This document shows, one piece after another, positions 14,536-24,959 of a stretch of 64,000 nucleotides of DNA. The notes under the pieces are model-generated. The model saw only the letters and a list, made by a program, of their open reading frames with translations. It had not been told where the DNA came from and did no database searches. The stretch lies in the NCBI RefSeq assembly GCF_000017505.1, contig NC_009675.1:4282501-4346500 (forward strand), in the 5' to 3' direction. The stretch is from Anaeromyxobacter sp. Fw109-5. GTDB taxonomy: Bacteria; Myxococcota; Myxococcia; Myxococcales; Anaeromyxobacteraceae. Made by a program: the position numbers and the translations under genes. Each line of letters opens with the position of its first letter. Position 1 is the stretch's first letter.

Positions 14536-15167
14536 CCGGCGGCGCGGTCCCGCCCCTCGGGGCGCGCCGGCGTCCGGTAGACCGCCTCGATGAAGCCGAC
14601 GAAGTACTTCACCGCCGAGAGCACCGAGAAGAAGAGCGAGATGTAGAGGAGCCAGGTTCCGACGCGGTTCCCGTCGAGATCGAAGGAGAAGAAGATCGCG
14701 TCGATCGGGTAGGTGTAGTGGAGCAGCAGGAAGGTGATGGCCGCGACCTGGAACGCCGTCTTGTGCTTCCCTTCCTGTCCCGCCGCGATGACGATCCCCT
14801 CGCTCATCGCGATGGTGCGCAGGCCGGTCACGATGAACTCGCGGGCCATGATGACGATCACCACCCAGGCCGTGACGCGGCCGAGGTGGACGAGCATCAC
14901 GAGCGCCGCCATCACGATGAGCTTGTCGGCGAGCGGGTCGAGGAACTTCCCGATCACCGTGACCAGGTTCTTGCGGCGCGCGACGAAGCCGTCGAGGAAG
15001 TCGGTCGCACCGGTCACGGCGTACACGACGCAGGCGATGAAGCTGTCGACGCGGGACTCGTGGAAGGTGAACCAGAGGAACACCGGGATCATCGCGATGC
15101 GCGTGAGCGTGATCGCGTTGGGGGCGTTCAGGAACTCGCGCGCGAGGGTGCGGGACGAGTCGCTCAC
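14433..15167 (-). CDS. pgsA: CDP-diacylglycerol-glycerol-3-phosphate 3-phosphatidyltransferase
   Basis: PgsA makes phosphatidylglycerol phosphate from CDP-diacylglycerol and glycerol-3-phosphate in the inner membrane. The CDP-alcohol phosphotransferase motif is intact: ATDFLDGFVARRKN followed by IGKFLDPLADK. NAPNAITLTRIAMIPVFLWF at the N-terminus and several hydrophobic helices match the family. The GTG start at 15167 overlaps the stop of the upstream TPR gene by four bases (GTGA), so the two are translationally coupled. The 244-residue product carries a hydrophilic Ser/Ala/Arg-rich tail of about 40 residues that overlaps the end of the opposing heptosyltransferase gene and may be dispensable. 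Confidence 0.95.
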   Translation of the reverse strand: MSDSSRTLAREFLNAPNAITLTRIAMIPVFLWFTFHESRVDSFIACVVYAVTGATDFLDGFVARRKNLVTVIGKFLDPLADKLIVMAALVMLVHLGRVTAWVVIVIMAREFIVTGLRTIAMSEGIVIAAGQEGKHKTAFQVAAITFLLLHYTYPIDAIFFSFDLDGNRVGTWLLYISLFFSVLSAVKYFVGFIEAVYRTPARPEGRDRAAGYGRDGERSRSQAASTASDSDSARTSAAAKPGTR

Positions 15168-16651
15168 GGCGCGCTCCCGGCCTCCGCGACCGCGTCGGGA
15201 TCGGCGATCGCGCGGCCCTCGCCCGTGAGCTCCACCGCGAGCGGCGTCCACTCCGCGTCCTCGGCGAGCGGCCCGAGCCGCGGGGTGAGCGCGCCGGTCC
15301 AGCCGACGAGCGCGGCGACGGGCAGCCGCAGCGGCGCGCCGGGGAGCACGTCGACGGCCACGGGCGCCCCGCGGGTCGCGAGGAGCAGCGCCCCCTCGCC
15401 GCGGATGTGCACGAGGTTCAGCTCGCCGGCGGAAGAGGGCACCCGCCCGTTCTCGAAGGCGATGGTCCCGTCGAGGCCGCACACCGCGTCCTCGCGGAAG
15501 TACGCGGCCTCGCCGCCGAGCTCGATCGCGGTGAGGCGGCGATCGCCGGCGCGGAGGAGGAGGACCCCCTCGCCGCTCGCGCGGTGCATGCGCTCCGCGC
15601 CCTCGCCGAAGGGCGTGTCCGTCGTGCGGCCGCGGAACCGCTTCACGTCGCCGGCCAAGGCCACGTCCCCGCGGAGGGCGAAGAGCCCGGCGAGGCGCAC
15701 GCGCACCTCGCCACGCACCGAGACCGAGAGCACGCCGTCGCGCACGTCGAAGGCGCCGCGTCCGTCCGCTGCCACGACGCGCGCCGCCGCCCACGCCGAG
15801 AGCGTCGCCGGCGCGTCCGCGGGCGCGGGGGCGGCCGCTGGGGGGGCCGGCGGCTCGGGCTCGGCGACGGGCGCCGCGCGCTCCTCCGCCGTGAGCGGCG
15901 CCGGGACCGGCCTCGGGAGCGGCTCGAGCGAATGGACCCGCGCCGCGATCTCGGCCTCCTCGACGGCAGCCTCGTAGGCGGGGGCCTCGTCGATGGGGGC
16001 CTCGTCGATGGGGGCCTCGTCGATGGGGGCCTCGTCGATGGGGGCCTCGTCGATGGGGGCCTCGTCGATGGGGGGCTCGTCGGCGGCGGCTCCGTCGATG
16101 CGGGCCTCGTCGGCGGGGGCCTCGCCCGCGGCCGCCTCGCCTCCGGCCTCGAGCGGCTCGGAGGCGGTGGCGCCCGCGAGCAGCGCGTCGCAGCGCGCCA
16201 CCATCTGCTCGCTGCCGGCCTTCGCGAACCAGCCGCGCGCCGCGGCGGGGTCGCCGCCCTCGAGCAGCGCGAGGCCGAGGTAGCCCATGGCCTTGCGGTG
16301 GTCGGGGTTGAGGTCGAGCGCGATCTCGAGCTGCCTGGCGGCCTCCGGGTATCGCTTCGCCTTGAGCCACGCGAGCCCGAGGTTCACGCGCGCGATCGGC
16401 TCGACCGGGCTCTCGTCCACGAGCCGCTGCCACACGTCACCCGCGTCCTCGAACCGGGCGAGCCGGTAGTACGCCTGGCCGAGCAGGCCGAGGACCTTCA
16501 CGTCCTTGGGGCGCAGGGTGCGGGCGCGCTCCAGCGCCGCGCGTGCGCCGTCGGCGTCGCCGGCGCCGATGAGCTCGGTGCCGCGCGTCAGGTGGAACAG
16601 GAACTCCTCGTCGAGCCCCTCGACCTCGTGGGTGCCGCCGCGCCTGGCCAA
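15164..16651 (-). CDS. TPR protein with IDEAP repeats and an AIM24-like C-terminal domain
   Basis: The first ~140 residues are TPR units (VLGLLGQAYYRLARFEDAGD, ARVNLGLAWLKAKRYPEAAR, AMGYLGLALLEGGDPAAARG). A disordered acidic linker follows with tandem IDEAP repeats and a Pro/Ala-rich stretch. The last ~210 residues are beta-rich (GAFDVRDGVLSVSVRGEVRV, AYFREDAVCGLDGTIAFENG, LVHIRGEGALLLATRGAPVA) and resemble the AIM24/TIGR00266 fold, whose exact role is unknown. A TTG at 16651, five bases after the lytic transglycosylase stop, is the best start because no ATG or GTG fits. It sits between the transglycosylase and pgsA in one operon. Confidence 0.75.
   Translation of the reverse strand: MARRGGTHEVEGLDEEFLFHLTRGTELIGAGDADGARAALERARTLRPKDVKVLGLLGQAYYRLARFEDAGDVWQRLVDESPVEPIARVNLGLAWLKAKRYPEAARQLEIALDLNPDHRKAMGYLGLALLEGGDPAAARGWFAKAGSEQMVARCDALLAGATASEPLEAGGEAAAGEAPADEARIDGAAADEPPIDEAPIDEAPIDEAPIDEAPIDEAPIDEAPAYEAAVEEAEIAARVHSLEPLPRPVPAPLTAEERAAPVAEPEPPAPPAAAPAPADAPATLSAWAAARVVAADGRGAFDVRDGVLSVSVRGEVRVRLAGLFALRGDVALAGDVKRFRGRTTDTPFGEGAERMHRASGEGVLLLRAGDRRLTAIELGGEAAYFREDAVCGLDGTIAFENGRVPSSAGELNLVHIRGEGALLLATRGAPVAVDVLPGAPLRLPVAALVGWTGALTPRLGPLAEDAEWTPLAVELTGEGRAIADPDAVAEAGSAP
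15981..16080. repeat. 15-bp in-frame tandem repeat encoding IDEAP
   Basis: Six nearly identical 15-bp units in the TPR/AIM24-like gene encode consecutive Ile-Asp-Glu-Ala-Pro units, with one diverged unit on each side. The near-perfect DNA identity implies recent slippage, so the copy number probably varies between strains. Confidence 0.9.
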
Positions 16652-16655
16652 AGCT

Positions 16656-17285
16656 TCACTTCCCGGCCTTGAAGGCCTCGTACAGGGCGACGACCTTGCG
16701 GACGTACTCGCGCGTCTCCGGGATGTTCGGGACGTCGCCACCCGCGCGGCGGACCGCCTCGGGCCCGGCGTTGTACGCGGCGAGGGTCCTCACGAGGTCG
16801 CCCTGGTACTGGTTCGCGAGGATGCGCAGGTAGCGCGCGCCGCCCTCGATGTTCTGCCCGGGATCCCACGCGTCGGACACGAACATGTCCTTCGCCGTCC
16901 CCGGCATGAGCTGCATGAGCCCCATCGCGCCCTTCTCCGACAGCGCGCGCTGGTCGAAGTTCGACTCCACCGACATCACGGCGAGGAGCAGCGCCTCGGG
17001 CAGCGCGTAGCGCTGGGCCGCCGCCGCGATGTGCTCGCGCCACTCGCGCTGGCGATCGCTCGACGCCCGCCGCGCGCGCGCCTGGGGACGCGAGCCCGAC
17101 TGGTAGACGCCGCCGCCGCTCCGCGAGCGGTGCACGCGCTTGTAGCGGGGGTCATCGGGGGCGTTGGAGAAGTGGACCACGCCGTCGGCGTCGACGTACG
17201 AGTAGACGTCACCGGCCGACGCGAGCGCGGGCGCGGAGAGGAGCCCCACGAGGGCGAGGCCGACGAGGGAGCGCGGGCCGGACAT
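16656..17285 (-). CDS. lytic transglycosylase (SLT family) with DUF4124 domain
   Basis: A 209-residue exported enzyme that should cleave peptidoglycan glycan strands in the periplasm. A signal peptide (LVGLALVGLLSAPALASA) is followed by a DUF4124 segment (GDVYSYVDADGVVHFSNAPD) and the SLT domain: catalytic Glu in LLAVMSVESNFDQRA, then GAMGLMQLMPGTA and LAAYNAGPEAV, all typical of family 1 transglycosylases. It is the first gene of an operon with the TPR/AIM24-like protein and pgsA, and is divergent from nadB over 90 bp. Confidence 0.93.
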   Translation of the reverse strand: MSGPRSLVGLALVGLLSAPALASAGDVYSYVDADGVVHFSNAPDDPRYKRVHRSRSGGGVYQSGSRPQARARRASSDRQREWREHIAAAAQRYALPEALLLAVMSVESNFDQRALSEKGAMGLMQLMPGTAKDMFVSDAWDPGQNIEGGARYLRILANQYQGDLVRTLAAYNAGPEAVRRAGGDVPNIPETREYVRKVVALYEAFKAGK

Positions 17286-19002: not shown

Positions 19003-19656
19003 TCACTGCCGCTCTGGCGGCGCGGGCTGGATGAGCGGCGTCGGCAGCGGCGGCGAGGTGTAGTCGAGCTCGAGCATCCCGAGGGCGCTCGCGATCTCCA
19101 GCACGTAGCCCTCGTCGGCGAGCGGACCCTCGGCCGGCATCGGGAAGCGCACCTGGTACGCCACGTCGAAGGGGCCGACCCACGGGAAGAGCATGCGAAG
19201 CTCTTCGTCCAGGTCGACGGCGTGCGCCTCGGAGCTCACGAGCTCGCCCGCCTCGCTCTTCACCGCGAGGTGCCAGATGCTCCGCGGCGCGTCGAGATCG
19301 TTGTTCTTCGACGTCGCGGTGTAGAACACCACGAGGAACTCCTCGCCGGCGGCGGCCTCGGCGCGCTCCACCGCGAGCCGGCGCTCGAGCTCCTCGGCCG
19401 TCCAGCCCCTCCACTCCGACAGCCGCCGGGCGCGCGCCTCGCGCACCGGCAGCGAGAGGTGCGTGGCGGTGGCGGTCGCGCGGTGGTCCAGGCCGTCGTA
19501 GAGCAGATCGCGCCGGGTCGCCGCGTCGCGCTTCAGCGCCCACTCGCCCTCCTGCGGACCGGGCGTCGGCGTGCGCGCGCGGAGTCTGCAGCCGACGCCG
19601 GCCACGCCGACGAGGGCGAGCGCGAGCGCGGCGCGGGCGAGCGTGGTCCGCCTCAT
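19003..19656 (-). CDS. hypothetical lipoprotein
   Basis: A 217-residue protein with an export signal (LARAALALALVGVAGVGC) ending in a plausible though imperfect lipobox Cys. The mature part is mixed alpha/beta: REARARRLSEWRGWTAEELE, AGEEFLVVFYTATSKNNDLD, RSIWHLAVKSEAGELVSSEA and FDVAYQVRFPMPAEG. No known domain is recognised. Its ATG overlaps the pyrE stop by four bases, making it the last gene of the bactofilin-ParB/Srx-pyrE operon. Confidence 0.7.
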   Translation of the reverse strand: MRRTTLARAALALALVGVAGVGCRLRARTPTPGPQEGEWALKRDAATRRDLLYDGLDHRATATATHLSLPVREARARRLSEWRGWTAEELERRLAVERAEAAAGEEFLVVFYTATSKNNDLDAPRSIWHLAVKSEAGELVSSEAHAVDLDEELRMLFPWVGPFDVAYQVRFPMPAEGPLADEGYVLEIASALGMLELDYTSPPLPTPLIQPAPPERQ

Positions 19657-20291
19657 CCGAGGAAGTCCTGGCGAGTGAAGAGCGCCTGGAGCGGGACGCC
19701 CTGCGCCTCGATGGCCTCGCGTCCGCCCTCCATCCGGTCGACGAGCGCGAGGCACGCGACCGGCTCGAGCTTCTCGACGCGGCAGCGCTCGATGGCCTTG
19801 AGCGCGCTCCCGCCGGTGGTCACCACGTCCTCGATCACGACCACCCGGCTGCCGTCGGGGATGGTCTTGCGCCCCTCGATCCACTGGCCGGTGCCGTGCC
19901 CCTTCGGCTCCTTGCGGACGACATAGGAGTCGATCGTGCCGGGGGGATACTGCCCCCCCGGACCCCCCGCTCGCTCCGGGGCAGCCTCATCCGGCTGCCC
20001 CTGCGCTCGCCGAGCCTCGTACTCCAGGAAGCTCGTCAGCGCGATGGCGCTGGCGATGGGGTCGGCGCCGAGCGTGAGCCCGCCCACGCCGCGCACGAGC
20101 GGCGTGATGCGGCGCACCCGGTCGAAGAGCAGGCGCCCGACGAGCACGTGGCCCTCGGCGGTGAGCGTGGTCCGCTTGCAGTCCACGTAGAAGTCGCTCT
20201 CCTTGCCGGAGGCGAGGATGACCTTCCGCCGCTCGAAGGAGAGGGCGCGCAGCAGCTCGAGGAGCCGGGCGCGATCGGTGTCGAGGCTCAT
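19653..20291 (-). CDS. pyrE: orotate phosphoribosyltransferase with an internal insert
   Basis: PyrE joins orotate to PRPP in pyrimidine synthesis. The core is complete: KVILASGKESDFYVDCKRTT, VGGLTLGADPIASAIAL, VVRKEPKGHGTGQWIEG and the PRPP loop VVVIEDVVTTGGSALKAIE. Between the third and fourth blocks an insert of about 30 residues (EARRAQGQPDEAAPERAGGP and QYPPG) is absent from ordinary PyrE; its DNA is a GC-rich palindrome. It starts at an ATG overlapping the ParB/Srx stop (ATGA) and ends overlapping the lipoprotein start, so it is embedded in the bactofilin operon. Confidence 0.93.
   Translation of the reverse strand: MSLDTDRARLLELLRALSFERRKVILASGKESDFYVDCKRTTLTAEGHVLVGRLLFDRVRRITPLVRGVGGLTLGADPIASAIALTSFLEYEARRAQGQPDEAAPERAGGPGGQYPPGTIDSYVVRKEPKGHGTGQWIEGRKTIPDGSRVVVIEDVVTTGGSALKAIERCRVEKLEPVACLALVDRMEGGREAIEAQGVPLQALFTRQDFLG
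19935..20028. repeat. palindromic in-frame insertion inside pyrE
   Basis: This stretch encodes the extra ~30 residues of PyrE. It contains a perfect inverted repeat (GGGGCAGCC / GGCTGCCCC, loop TCATCC) and long G and C runs. A related shorter palindrome (GGCAGCC / GGCTGCC followed by CCCGCGCTC) occurs near 30192 inside the epimerase gene, hinting at a dispersed element that can sit inside coding regions. Confidence 0.55.
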
Positions 20292-21106
20292 TCGTCGTCT
20301 CCCTCGAGGTGCGGCAGGAGCGCCGCGAGCCAGCGGGCCTGCGCGAGGATCTGGTGACGCCCCTCGGGCGGCAGCTCGGCCCAGGCGCCCGCGGCGAGCG
20401 CGAGGTCCTGGTTCAGCTCCCATAGCCGGCGCGCGACGTCCTCGGCGAGCTCGTCGGGCGTGACCTCCACCTCGACCTCGCCCGGGGGCTCCCGCTCCGC
20501 CTCGTCCGCCTCGAGCTCTCGCTCGAACGCGGCGTCCTCGTCGACCGGGGGCGTGCCGCCCTCGGGCTCCGCCGAAGGGGGCTCGCCAGGCGCGGAGGCG
20601 GGGGCGGAGGCGGGCGCGCCCGCCTCCAGGAACGCGAAGAACCGCTCGCGCAGCTCCGGCTCCACCGGCGCGCGCACGCGCGCCTCGTCCACGAGCTCGT
20701 CCGCCCAGGGCGCCACGCCGCTCTCGGCGAGCCGTGTGCGGAGGGCGAGCAGCGCCTCGCCGTCGAGCGGCTCGGTGAGGAGCGCCTGGGCGAGGGCGAT
20801 CCCCCAGGCGTCGTCGTCCTCGAGCCGCTCGTGGATGCGCGCGAGCACGCGCTCGCGCATCAGCATCCGGAGCGCCGCGAGGCGCCGGAAGCCGGCGATG
20901 ACCTGGTAGCGGCCTGGCGCCGTCGGGTGCGGCCGCAGCTCGACGGGCGAGAGCTGCCCGAGGCGGCCGATGGAGGCCGCCAGGTGCGAGACGTCGCCCT
21001 CCGGGCGCACCCGGTACGTCGCGTCGTCGTCGACGGCGGCGAGGGGTACGAACGCGACGGCGCCCGTCGCATGGGCGGGCGCCGTCGTGCGCGGCTCGTG
21101 CTCCAC
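20288..21106 (-). CDS. ParB/Srx-domain protein, PadC-like
   Basis: A 272-residue protein with an N-terminal ParB/Srx (CTP-binding type) fold: VAFVPLAAVDDDATYRVRP, LAASIGRLGQLSPVELRPHP and YQVIAGFRRLAALRML, where GFRRL corresponds to the GERR motif of ParB. The expected ENLQRxxL segment is changed to AQALLTEPLDGEAL. There is no obvious DNA-binding HTH. A disordered acidic Pro/Ala linker and a helical C-terminal part (ARRLWELNQDLALAAGAWAE) follow. It sits 15 bp downstream of two bactofilins. In Myxococcus xanthus, bactofilins organise ParA/ParB through PadC, a ParB/Srx-domain protein, so a PadC-like adaptor is the leading guess. The stop overlaps the pyrE start. Confidence 0.75.
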   Translation of the reverse strand: MEHEPRTTAPAHATGAVAFVPLAAVDDDATYRVRPEGDVSHLAASIGRLGQLSPVELRPHPTAPGRYQVIAGFRRLAALRMLMRERVLARIHERLEDDDAWGIALAQALLTEPLDGEALLALRTRLAESGVAPWADELVDEARVRAPVEPELRERFFAFLEAGAPASAPASAPGEPPSAEPEGGTPPVDEDAAFERELEADEAEREPPGEVEVEVTPDELAEDVARRLWELNQDLALAAGAWAELPPEGRHQILAQARWLAALLPHLEGDDE

Positions 21107-21121
21107 GGCGAGCCTCGCCGA

Positions 21122-21664
21122 CTACTTGCGCTTCACGATCACCTTGCGCTTCACCGCGCCCATGGCGACCGGCGCAGGGGGCACGAGCGGCTTGGGCGCG
21201 GCGACCGCGACGGTCTTCTCCTCGCTCTTGCGCTCGATCGGAGCCGGGCGCGGGGCGGGGCGGAGCGACGGGCGGACGGGCAGCGGGGCCGGGCGAGCGA
21301 CGGTGCGCGTCTCGCGCTCCGCCTCCACGTCCACCTCGCCCATGTCGATGCGGCCGCGGAAGCTCGCGCCGTCGACGATGATCACGCGCGGCGAGCTGAT
21401 GTCGCCGACCATGCGGCCTTCGCGGGTGATCTCGACGGACTCGCTGGCGGTGACGTTGCCGACGATGGCGCCGGAGATGATGCAGTTCTTGACCTGGACC
21501 TCGGCCTTCACGACGCCGGTCGGCTCGACCACGAGGGTCTTCGTGAGGGTGAGCGTGCCCTCGACCCGGCCGCGGACCGTGAGGTCCTCGTCGCCGTTGA
21601 GAGAGCCGCTGATGAGGATCGACTCGCCGATGATGGTGCTGCCGTCAATGGTCGCCACGGTCAC
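21122..21664 (-). CDS. bactofilin (longer paralogue)
   Basis: A 180-residue bactofilin, a right-handed beta-helix protein that forms nucleotide-independent cytoskeletal filaments. The core repeats are visible: STIIGESILISGSLNGDEDL, TVRGRVEGTLTLTKTLVVEP, GAIVGNVTASESVEITREGR and MVGDISSPRVIIVDGASFRG. A Pro/Arg-rich tail of about 60 residues ending in a highly basic KRKVIVKRK follows and may bind DNA or partners. The GTG start at 21664 overlaps the previous bactofilin stop (GTGA). Confidence 0.93.
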   Translation of the reverse strand: MTVATIDGSTIIGESILISGSLNGDEDLTVRGRVEGTLTLTKTLVVEPTGVVKAEVQVKNCIISGAIVGNVTASESVEITREGRMVGDISSPRVIIVDGASFRGRIDMGEVDVEAERETRTVARPAPLPVRPSLRPAPRPAPIERKSEEKTVAVAAPKPLVPPAPVAMGAVKRKVIVKRK

Positions 21665-22029
21665 TTCCCCTTCGTTTCCTTGACGTCCATGTCGACGTTG
21701 CCCTTGAAGAGCGCCCCGTCGGCGATCAGGATGCGCGGGGCGCGGATGTCGCCCACGACCTTGCAATCGGCCTTCAGCTCGACCTTGTCGCTCGCGGCGA
21801 TGTTGCCCGTCACCTGCCCGGACACCTCGACGTTCGCGGTCTCGATGTCCGCCTCGATGACGCCCGAGCCCTCGACGTAGAGGCTCTCGCGCAGGCTGAT
21901 GCGGCCCTTGACGGTGCCCTGGATGACGAGGTCCTCGTCGCCCGAGATCTCGCCGTCGATCACGATCGAGCTTCCGATCACCGTGTGCGCGCCGCTGCGG
22001 GGCGCCGGGACCTTCTCGATGCCAGCCAT
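21661..22029 (-). CDS. bactofilin (short paralogue)
   Basis: A compact 122-residue bactofilin: HTVIGSSIVIDGEISGDEDL, VIQGTVKGRISLRESLYVEG, NVEVSGQVTGNIAASDKVEL and KVVGDIRAPRILIADGALFK. It is first in the operon, with GGAGG before the ATG and its own promoter at 22096-22125. The two paralogues probably co-polymerise, as myxobacterial bactofilins do. Confidence 0.94.
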   Translation of the reverse strand: MAGIEKVPAPRSGAHTVIGSSIVIDGEISGDEDLVIQGTVKGRISLRESLYVEGSGVIEADIETANVEVSGQVTGNIAASDKVELKADCKVVGDIRAPRILIADGALFKGNVDMDVKETKGK

Positions 22030-22095: not shown

Positions 22096-22125
22096 AGGAT
22101 AGAGGGCCTCTCCAGGGGGCGTCAA
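22096..22125 (-). promoter_or_regulatory. bactofilin operon promoter
   Basis: Read leftward, TTGACG (22120-22125) and TATCCT (22096-22101) are separated by 18 bp, placing transcription start about 60 bases before the first bactofilin ATG. It lies between that gene and the stop of the upstream hydrolase. Confidence 0.6.
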
Positions 22126-22142: not shown

Positions 22143-23009
22143 TCACTTCGCGTGGGACGAGAGCCAGGCGATCGCCTCGGCGATGGGCCGATCGCGCTCG
22201 ATCTCGTTGAAGATCTCGTGTCGGAACCCGTCGTACACGCTGAGCCGCTTGTCGGCGGACCGGGCCGCGTCGACGAACGCGCGCGCCGCGGCCACGTCGG
22301 CGATCCGGTCGGCGCCCGCGGCGAGCACGAGCAGGGGCGCCTCGAACCTCGCCGCCCGGCGCAGCACCGTGAGCTGCGCCCGCGTCGACTCGCCGAACCA
22401 GCGGGGCGTGGTGGAGCGGGAGTAGAGCGGATCGCGGGCGGTCCAGCGCTGCAGCTCGGGATCCGAGGTGAGGTCCTGGACGTCGAGGCCCGCCGAGATC
22501 GGCAGCCAGGGGACGATCCGGCCGGCGAGCTTCGCGGCGAGGACCTTCGCCATCGGCGGACGGAGCGCGAGCCGGAAGTAGGGCGACGAGAGCACGAAGC
22601 CGTCCACGTCGCGCCCGTGCTCGAGCCCCCACGCCGCGGCGACGAGCGCCCCGTGGCTGTGCGCGAGGATCCAGAGCTTGCCGCTCGCGCCGTCGGCGCG
22701 GAGCTTCGCGATGAACGCGGAGAGGTCCGCGACGTAGTCGGAGAACGCGTCCACGTGCCAGCGCCGCCCGTCGGACTGCCCGTGGCCGCGGAGGTCGACG
22801 AGCGCGACCTGGAAGCCGGCGCGGACGAGCGCCGTGGTGACCGCCGGGTAGCGGCCGGAGTGATCCCCGGCGCCGTGGAGCACCACCACCGTGCCGCGGG
22901 GCGACGCCGGGGTGTAGCGCTGCCAGAACAGGCGGAGGTGGTCCGACGAGTTGAGGAACCCTTCCTCGTGGCGCGCCTCCGCCTCGGAGGGGAACGAGGG
23001 GACCGTCAT
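22143..23009 (-). CDS. alpha/beta-hydrolase, monoacylglycerol lipase-like
   Basis: A 288-residue serine hydrolase of the lysophospholipase/monoglyceride lipase type (Hydrolase_4). The oxyanion region is VVVLHGAGDHSGRYPAV, then ALVDLRGHGQSDGRR. The nucleophile elbow is LAHSHGALVAAAWG, the acid is in LVLAAGADRIAD and the base in YDGFRHEIFNE, so the triad is complete. No signal peptide is seen. The ATG at 23009 is preferred over the in-frame codon three residues upstream. The likely substrate is a mono- or lysolipid. Confidence 0.88.
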   Translation of the reverse strand: MTVPSFPSEAEARHEEGFLNSSDHLRLFWQRYTPASPRGTVVVLHGAGDHSGRYPAVTTALVRAGFQVALVDLRGHGQSDGRRWHVDAFSDYVADLSAFIAKLRADGASGKLWILAHSHGALVAAAWGLEHGRDVDGFVLSSPYFRLALRPPMAKVLAAKLAGRIVPWLPISAGLDVQDLTSDPELQRWTARDPLYSRSTTPRWFGESTRAQLTVLRRAARFEAPLLVLAAGADRIADVAAARAFVDAARSADKRLSVYDGFRHEIFNEIERDRPIAEAIAWLSSHAK

Positions 23010-23042: not shown

Positions 23043-24959
23043 TCAAGGGGTCGCGCGGGATCGGGCCGTCGCGCCGAGCTCGCGCAGCTTGCGCTCGATC
23101 CCCGCTCTCCGCCTCGGGCCGTCGTCGGCGTCCTCACCGCCGTCTTCTCCCGCGCCCAGGGCGCGCCGGTACGCCTGCGCCGCGTCGGCGGTCCGCGCGA
23201 GGGCGCGGTAGGCGTCCCCGAGGTGCTCCAGGATCACGGCGTCGGGTCCGGCGAGCGCGTCGGCCTGCTCGAGGGCCTCCGCCGCGCGCGCGTACTCGCC
23301 GCGCCGGAAGAGCACCCACCCGAGCGAGTCGCGGACGTGACCGGAGCGGGGTCTCAGCTCGACCGCGCGCCGGACGAGCCGCTCCGCCTCGTCCAGCCGG
23401 GTGCCGCGCTCGGCGAGCGCGTAGCCCATGAAGTTCAGCGCCTCGGCGTGATCCGGGACGAGCGCGAGGAGCGCCTGCATCTGTGCGACGGCCGCGTCGA
23501 GCTGCCCGGCCCGGTGGTACGTGGCGCCCAGCGCGTAGAGCAGCGCCTGGTCGCGGGGATCCGAGGCCAGCGCGCTGCGCAGCGCCGACACCGCCTCCGC
23601 CGCCTTCCCCGCCCTCACGAGCGCGTCGGCGAGCGCGGCCGTGAGCTCGGCCACCTCCGCCTTCGCCCGGGTCTTCTCGCTCGCCGCCCCCCTCAGGAGA
23701 GCGACCGCCTCGGCGCGCCGGCCGGCGCGGGAGAGCGCCGCGGCGCGCGCGAGGACGAGCCGGACGTCCTTCGGGAAGTCGGCGAGGGGCGCCGCCAGCG
23801 CGCGCTCCGCCTCGGCGTGACGACCGGCGCGGGAGAGCGCGTCGGCGAGGGCCACCCGCGCCGGGATCCAGTAGACGTCCGCGCTCGGGGGGACGGCCTG
23901 CAGGGCCGTCGCGGCCTCCGGGTAGCGGCGCAGCTCGCGCAGCGCCAGCCCCTCCGCGAAGCGGAGCCGCGCGTCGGGGCCCACCTCCCCGAGCCCCTGG
24001 CGCGCCGCGGCGAGCGCGTCGGCGGGCCGGCCGGCCTCGAGCCACTCGAACGCGATGCGCAGGTGCGCCTCGGACCGGTCCCCCGCGGCGCGCGCGTGGC
24101 GGCGGAACCACTCCCGCGCCCGCTCGGCGTCGCCCGCCTGCGCGGCGAGGTGACCGAGGGCGACGAGCGAGGCGGCGTCGTCCGGCTCTCGCCGCAGGAC
24201 CGCGAGGTGGTCGTCGCGCGCCTCGCCGTCACGCCCGAGCGCCTCGTGCGCCGCCGCGAGCAGGCGGAGCGCCTCCACCTCGGCCGGATCCAGCTCCGCG
24301 GCGCGCCGCAGGCCGTGCTCGGCGCGGCCCGGCTGACCGCGATCGAGCAGCGCGCGCCCCAGCTCCCGCAGCCCGGCGGCGGCCTCGGCCGGCGCGTGCG
24401 GGCCGAGATCCTCCAGCGTCCGCGCCGCGGCGGCCTCGTCCCCCAGGTCGAGGTAGAGGTCCGCGAGGAGCCTCCACGGCAGCGCGTCCGCGCGCTCGCC
24501 CCGCGCGGCGAGGTCCGCCTCGAGGCGAACGGCGCGGCGGAGCTCGAGCGTCGCCTCCTCGATGCGATCGCGCCCCGCCGCGAGCCGGGCGAGGAGCACG
24601 TGCGCCTCCGAGGCCGTCCGGCCGGCGCCGCCCGCGAGCTCCAGGGCCTTGCGCGCCTCGGCCTCCGCCGCGTCGAAGCGGTCCAGCTCGAGCAGCGCCT
24701 CGGCGAGCGAGACGCGCAGCTCGGGGCTCGTCCCGTCGTGCGCGACCGCCAGCCTGAGGGCGTCGACGGCGCCGCGCGGGTCACCCGCCCGCGCACGCCG
24801 ATGCGCCTCGAGGTAGCCGGCGATGGCGCGCGCCGAGGCCCAGCGCTTCGAGCCGGCCCCGTCCGCGCTCCTGCCGGGCCGCGTGAGGGGCGCAGCGCGC
24901 GGGGCGCCCGCTGCGGCGAGCAGTGCGAGGACGAGGACGTGACGCGCGACGGTGCGCAT
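23043..24959 (-). CDS. exported TPR-repeat protein
   Basis: A 638-residue protein with a cleavable signal peptide (HVLVLALLAAAGAPRAAP) followed by TPR units almost to the end, for example YLEAHRRARAGDPRGAVDAL, LLADLYLDLGDEAAAARTLE, LVALGHLAAQAGDAERAREW and HAEALNFMGYALAERGTRLD. It is probably a periplasmic or outer-membrane-associated scaffold. No enzymatic domain is visible. It reads leftward 33 bases before the hydrolase gene and is likely co-transcribed with it. Confidence 0.88.
   Translation of the reverse strand: MRTVARHVLVLALLAAAGAPRAAPLTRPGRSADGAGSKRWASARAIAGYLEAHRRARAGDPRGAVDALRLAVAHDGTSPELRVSLAEALLELDRFDAAEAEARKALELAGGAGRTASEAHVLLARLAAGRDRIEEATLELRRAVRLEADLAARGERADALPWRLLADLYLDLGDEAAAARTLEDLGPHAPAEAAAGLRELGRALLDRGQPGRAEHGLRRAAELDPAEVEALRLLAAAHEALGRDGEARDDHLAVLRREPDDAASLVALGHLAAQAGDAERAREWFRRHARAAGDRSEAHLRIAFEWLEAGRPADALAAARQGLGEVGPDARLRFAEGLALRELRRYPEAATALQAVPPSADVYWIPARVALADALSRAGRHAEAERALAAPLADFPKDVRLVLARAAALSRAGRRAEAVALLRGAASEKTRAKAEVAELTAALADALVRAGKAAEAVSALRSALASDPRDQALLYALGATYHRAGQLDAAVAQMQALLALVPDHAEALNFMGYALAERGTRLDEAERLVRRAVELRPRSGHVRDSLGWVLFRRGEYARAAEALEQADALAGPDAVILEHLGDAYRALARTADAAQAYRRALGAGEDGGEDADDGPRRRAGIERKLRELGATARSRATP

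Follow-up and report, generated by a model that had tools for sequence, protein, structure and literature searches.

The closest described counterpart of the locus considered here is bacNOP-padC of Myxococcus xanthus, whose clustering in Myxococcales has already been reported and which is itself without parA and parB (PMC5703909). For the M. xanthus system, polymer formation, binding of BacP to PadC and of PadC to ParA, and binding of CTP without hydrolysis have all been described (PMC5703909, PMC8367383, PMC8494293, PMC7333895, PMC12448750), and mutations in the CTP pocket of PadC impair ParA binding (PMC7333895). A further M. xanthus bactofilin, BacM, has a role in cell shape and stands outside the PadC scaffold (PMC5703909). 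A second point of reference is canonical ParB (Spo0J): ParB proteins that hydrolyse CTP combine GERR with ENLQR, whereas in M. xanthus PadC the position of the catalytic glutamate is F348, ENLQR is absent, and CTP is bound but not hydrolysed (PMC8494293, PMC8367383).

The window – the whole stretch of 64,000 nucleotides analysed, from Anaeromyxobacter sp. Fw109-5, the genome of which is one contig of 5,277,990 bases – carries, in order of transcription on the minus strand, genes for a TPR protein, an alpha/beta hydrolase (abh), bactofilin 1, bactofilin 2, a protein of the ParB/Srx fold, orotate phosphoribosyltransferase (pyrE) and a predicted lipoprotein (lip) (Table 1). The last five had been grouped in a preliminary description, and all were duly placed on the minus strand; the term "one overlapping operon", however, applies to part of the unit. 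Overlaps of 4 nt (ATGA) join padC to pyrE and pyrE to the lipoprotein gene, but bacP and padC are 15 nt apart, and bacO and bacP are spaced by +2 nt with the GTG start at 21658 or by -4 nt with the alternative GTG at 21664. The former, lying near the start position used by most relatives, is most likely the start of bacP. The unit is tightly packed, though without overlap throughout. A promoter-like TTGAC-N18-TATCCT element occupies the equivalent position in eight other Anaeromyxobacteraceae loci; it was not found in two Myxococcaceae loci looked at, nor in a locus that has no bactofilin (L042). Elsewhere in the window a TPR-type protein (ORF 15164-16741, minus strand) contains a tandem IDEAP repeat (IDEAPIDEAPIDEAP..., at about 15993-16100). 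A plasmid origin was considered and rejected, there being no match in plasmid records.

Table 1. Features of the locus (window coordinates) and shrunken bactofilins of related loci (coordinates within each locus)
Feature	Position	Strand	Basis or remark
TPR protein	23043-24959	minus	Pfam TPR; upstream neighbour, conserved in relatives
Alpha/beta hydrolase (abh)	22143-23009	minus	Pfam Hydrolase_4 5.2e-75; upstream neighbour, conserved in relatives
Sigma70-like promoter TTGACG-N18-TATCCT	22096-22125	minus	66 nt upstream of bacO
bacO ortholog, bactofilin 1, 122 aa	21661-22029	minus	Pfam Bactofilin 7.4e-26
bacP ortholog, bactofilin 2, 178 aa, Pro-rich linker and basic tail	21122-21658	minus	Pfam Bactofilin 8.6e-24
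BacP C-terminal tail KRKVIVKRK-stop	21122-21151	minus	Counterpart of M. xanthus KKKVVVKKK
padC ortholog, ParB/Srx-fold adaptor, 272 aa, GTG start	20288-21106	minus	PDB 6RYK 5e-36, Foldseek, synteny
PadC Box II GFRR	20882-20893	minus	GERR in CTP-hydrolysing ParB
pyrE, orotate phosphoribosyltransferase	19653-20291	minus	Pfam Pribosyltran 2e-07; cassette neighbour, not member
Predicted lipoprotein, lipobox-like VAGVGC	19003-19656	minus	No Pfam family; neighbour, conserved after pyrE
Shrunken bactofilin, L047	6938-7255		
Shrunken bactofilin, L125	6104-6454		
Shrunken bactofilin, L126	6566-6817		
Shrunken bactofilin, L065	105-449		

Several lines of evidence identify the three central genes. The best match of the ParB-like protein among all PDB sequences is 6RYK, M. 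xanthus PadC (5e-36), with the match spanning residues 16-130 (the ParB-fold part) and 205-269 (the C-terminal helices); canonical ParB and Noc fall far behind in the same search. Pfam ParB_N stays below its cut-off of 26.3 bits (21.2 bits, 3.1e-4), but the match to 6RYK confirms the ParB/Srx fold. An AlphaFold model built from 28 sequences has a mean pLDDT of 86.6 and a pTM of 0.57, which leaves the arrangement of the domains uncertain; its top Foldseek match is again 6ryk (1e-13). In a tree built on the bactofilin domains of 21 operons and of the window, bactofilin 1 falls in the BacO clade (support 0.915) and bactofilin 2 in the BacP clade (support 0.894), in neither case with intruders, and bactofilin 1 is approximately 86% identical to M. 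xanthus BacO. The previously claimed connection with the bactofilin/PadC system of M. xanthus thus holds, as orthology rather than mere resemblance.

The orthologs share their surroundings. Most surveyed loci with enough flank, including that of M. xanthus (L087), have the order tpr-abh-(bacN)-bacO-bacP-padC-pyrE-lip; because dozens of loci from the window's taxonomic order share it, M. xanthus among them, a chance arrangement is excluded. The preliminary description had staked its reading on a conserved neighbourhood in other genomes and had pointed to M. xanthus bacNOP-padC for comparison: the neighbourhood exists in those dozens of loci, and the comparison returns the same gene order and the same flanks, BacN excepted. 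A scan of named genomes placed padC in Myxococcaceae, in Archangium-type and Anaeromyxobacter-type myxobacteria and in related MAGs; the A. soli and A. terrae loci are, of the named Anaeromyxobacter loci, the closest to the window (80% identity). The myxobacterial padC gene order also occurs in two records bearing other titles (one Comamonas, one Proteobacteria MAG), which may be mislabelled.

From the retention of GFRR and the loss of an ENLQR-like segment an altered use of CTP had been surmised, as if peculiar to this protein. GFRR is indeed present in window PadC and ENLQR absent, but the same pattern is seen in 80 of 81 distinct PadC proteins, that of M. xanthus included. The one remaining has GHRR, and an ENLQR-like segment was found in none of the 81. 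The GFRR count is partly built in, the named-genome scan having used a GFRR-containing peptide pattern; the other PadC loci, among them the sole GHRR case, came from a whole-protein search. As a control, the genome's own ParB has GERRWR, ENLQR and LGRGM. An LGKGL-type ParA-binding motif was found neither in 16 PadC open frames nor in window PadC. Window PadC has, then, the PadC type of nucleotide site – both Box II arginines kept, catalytic glutamate and ENLQR absent – and not the features of a canonical ParB CTPase (GERR plus ENLQR, ParA-binding LGRG). To judge from these sequences, GFRR without ENLQR is the conserved, standard condition of PadC and no sign of local decay.

The absence of parA and parB, previously listed as a difference, is likewise shared with M. 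xanthus. The genome has both genes elsewhere, in a parA-parB-BacM-like bactofilin locus at C1:5.27 Mb (L038), where parA and a parB with GERR, ENLQR and LGRGM would provide the ParABS partner. A fourth, BacM-like bactofilin lies at L039 7014-7457 (C1:4133097), away from the padC and parAB loci alike, and a similarly isolated BacM-like gene occurs in another genome (G012, L162).

Not all relatives keep bactofilins beside padC. In G023 (a complete, single-contig genome; L042) and G013 (L051/L117) padC stands between abh and pyrE without a bactofilin, and in G015 (L118/L124) the order is padC-pyrE-lipoprotein, again with no bactofilin alongside; the sole bactofilin found in these three genomes is the BacM-type gene beside parAB. 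Genomes of a further genus (g3) have at the padC locus a single shrunken bactofilin, approximately 36 residues shorter (about two beta-helix rungs by manual count), which in three of four cases has LRRRIRLR or a comparable basic tail at its end. In all four an ACG stands at the expected ATG start, after a GGAG-like ribosome site, and is indicative of either a decayed gene or a near-cognate start. Among relatives with only the shrunken bactofilin, padC has a pairwise dN well below dS (about 0.2 and 0.55-0.6, respectively, by the Nei-Gojobori method, values that are rough in GC-rich DNA and invalid for comparisons involving L126 padC, for which the wrong start was picked); dN is also below dS, more weakly, for the shrunken bactofilin itself.

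Together with the bactofilin-less lineages, these ratios suggest that padC outlives its scaffold, and PadC, being retained in some relatives that lack BacP, may do more than serve the scaffold. On a broader, tentative reading, to which we attach somewhat less than even weight, PadC would be the selected core of the cassette, with a bactofilin-independent function: three families of the order include lineages whose adjacent bactofilins are gone or shrunken (in one, by about two beta-helix rungs), while padC has stayed in place, under purifying selection where this is measurable. That the selected role of PadC at the present locus is itself mainly bactofilin-independent (acting, say, on the nucleoid or on ParA), with the bactofilins as an accessory scaffold, we consider rather unlikely. 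Such a role would accord with the persistence of padC in G023, G013 and G015, with its low dN, and with the binding of M. xanthus PadC to the nucleoid in E. coli (PMC5703909); in the lineage of the window, however, bacO and bacP are intact and the PadC-docking tail is kept, and the majority of loci retain the full bactofilin-padC set. A scaffold of BacO and BacP that works through PadC is the preferred reading here, while relatives with padC and no bactofilin constitute natural experiments on PadC without its scaffold, and are the most interesting lead of the locus.

The C-terminal tail of BacP bears directly on how that scaffold would work. Almost all BacP proteins surveyed keep a basic tail, while the Pro-rich linker leading into it varies, and the KRKVIVKRK of the window matches KKKVVVKKK(TR) of M. 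xanthus BacP; such a tail is absent from the 28 BacM-type bactofilins examined. One BacP (L067) has a scrambled C-terminal end resembling a frameshift. The tail had been put forward as a contact with DNA, and this proposal can be extended to a DNA- or membrane-binding element given that the tail is short, strongly basic, C-terminal and conserved; but it is the conserved KKKVVVKK tail of BacP, seen only in the bactofilin that adjoins padC, and the M. xanthus BacP fragment that carries it binds PadC with a KD of 340 nM (PMC5703909), the motif itself having been suggested to contact PadC (PMC12448750). Binding to DNA or membrane is accordingly an improbable role, and docking of PadC by the tail is, by analogy with M. 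xanthus, better supported than contact with DNA.

A special coupling of the unit to pyrE and the lipoprotein gene, as earlier proposed, is not borne out by sister families without the cassette, in which pyrE directly follows the abhydrolase gene. In six sister genomes of the window's taxonomic order with no PadC match, pyrE directly adjoins abh, with neither bactofilin nor PadC between them; the lipoprotein gene follows pyrE in five of the six and the TPR gene lies upstream (weakly in one). The absence of padC from the sister families rests on a profile search, which was empty but lacked a positive control there, and also on a single-protein search that found padC in 44 of 60 genomes. The bac-padC genes would appear to behave as a cassette between abh and pyrE, either acquired by one part of the order or lost from the rest, and because tpr-abh-pyrE-lip exists in cassette-free families the linkage to pyrE marks an insertion site and not a functional link. 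A coupling of chromosome positioning to pyrimidine supply (PyrE to UMP to CTP, read by PadC) is most improbable and is not needed to explain the arrangement: conservation of the padC-pyrE adjacency extends across most of the group, with the 4-nt overlap in Anaeromyxobacteraceae, and M. xanthus PadC does bind CTP (PMC8367383), but pyrE already adjoins abh in the six PadC-free genomes, and two others (G010 and G016), in which no match to pyrE was found, still have bacNOP-padC.

The pyrE gene of the window contains a palindromic repeat of approximately 60 bp, inserted in frame (19946-20012) and adding about 25 residues (RAQGQPDEAAPERAGGPGG), which recalls the in-frame palindromic elements of other bacteria. 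Eleven further similar copies occur elsewhere in the genome, and the stem varies in compensating pairs (GGGGCAGC/GCTGCCCC vs. GGCGCAGC/GCTGCGCC). The repeat occupies the same pyrE site in G023 (L042), and L134, perhaps also L064, has a fragment of it there; most relatives are without it.

Very probably, then, the locus is the Anaeromyxobacter bacO-bacP-padC cassette, an ortholog of M. xanthus bacNOP-padC with the same proposed scaffold mechanism. According to this mechanism BacO and BacP would co-polymerise without nucleotide into a subpolar scaffold, and the basic tail that ends the disordered C-terminal linker of BacP would dock PadC; PadC, holding CTP without hydrolysing it, would retain ParA near the cell ends and so contribute to positioning the ParB-parS origin complex, which is encoded in another part of the genome. 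By analogy, we infer the same interactions in this organism with two bactofilins and a PadC without N-terminal extension; given that BacN and the extension are missing, some function may differ.

Compared with canonical ParB (Spo0J), window PadC has the ParB/Srx N-terminal fold and retains both arginines of Box II along with the greater part of Box I (LxxSIxxxGxxxP); unlike it, PadC has GFRR for GERR and is without both ENLQR and an LGRG-type ParA-binding motif, and padC does not adjoin parA. The M. xanthus parAB-bacM locus has its counterpart in the parA-parB-bactofilin locus of this genome, which is separate from padC.

With M. xanthus bacNOP-padC (PadC is MXAN_4634; PMC5703909; PDB 6RYK) the likeness is far-reaching: BacO, BacP and PadC are orthologous and in the same order, the flanks (TPR, abhydrolase, pyrE, lipoprotein) are shared, as are the GFRR/no-ENLQR site of PadC, the basic tail of BacP and the location of parAB at another locus. 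Membership of the BacNOP-PadC group is seen in the PadC ortholog, the tailed BacP, its BacO partner, and gene order with flanks. Against these stand several differences. BacN was found neither at the window locus nor at any Anaeromyxobacteraceae locus examined, and is not treated as essential to membership because it is largely redundant in M. xanthus (PMC5703909). The recognisable TTGAC-N18-TATCCT promoter upstream of bacO is lineage-specific. Window PadC has S at position 53 in P-motif-1 (F308 in M. xanthus) and a low-confidence acidic/Pro-rich linker (residues ~165-205) before the C-terminal helices. It also lacks the disordered N-terminal extension of approximately 280 residues: an in-frame stop upstream limits it to 272-277 aa, and throughout the Anaeromyxobacteraceae little sequence separates the BacP stop from the conserved PadC core, whereas in Myxococcaceae this stretch is long. 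Since M. xanthus PadC-delta-1-281 still binds ParA and BacP (PMC5703909), the long N-terminus is dispensable for both and is taken as a difference rather than a defining feature; window PadC would closely correspond to that construct, as a naturally minimal PadC. The window thus adds to an already characterised kind of system a member of reduced composition: BacO, BacP and a short PadC core, a minimal set that is the natural form in the whole family Anaeromyxobacteraceae and that sets the limits of the known link between cytoskeleton and chromosome.
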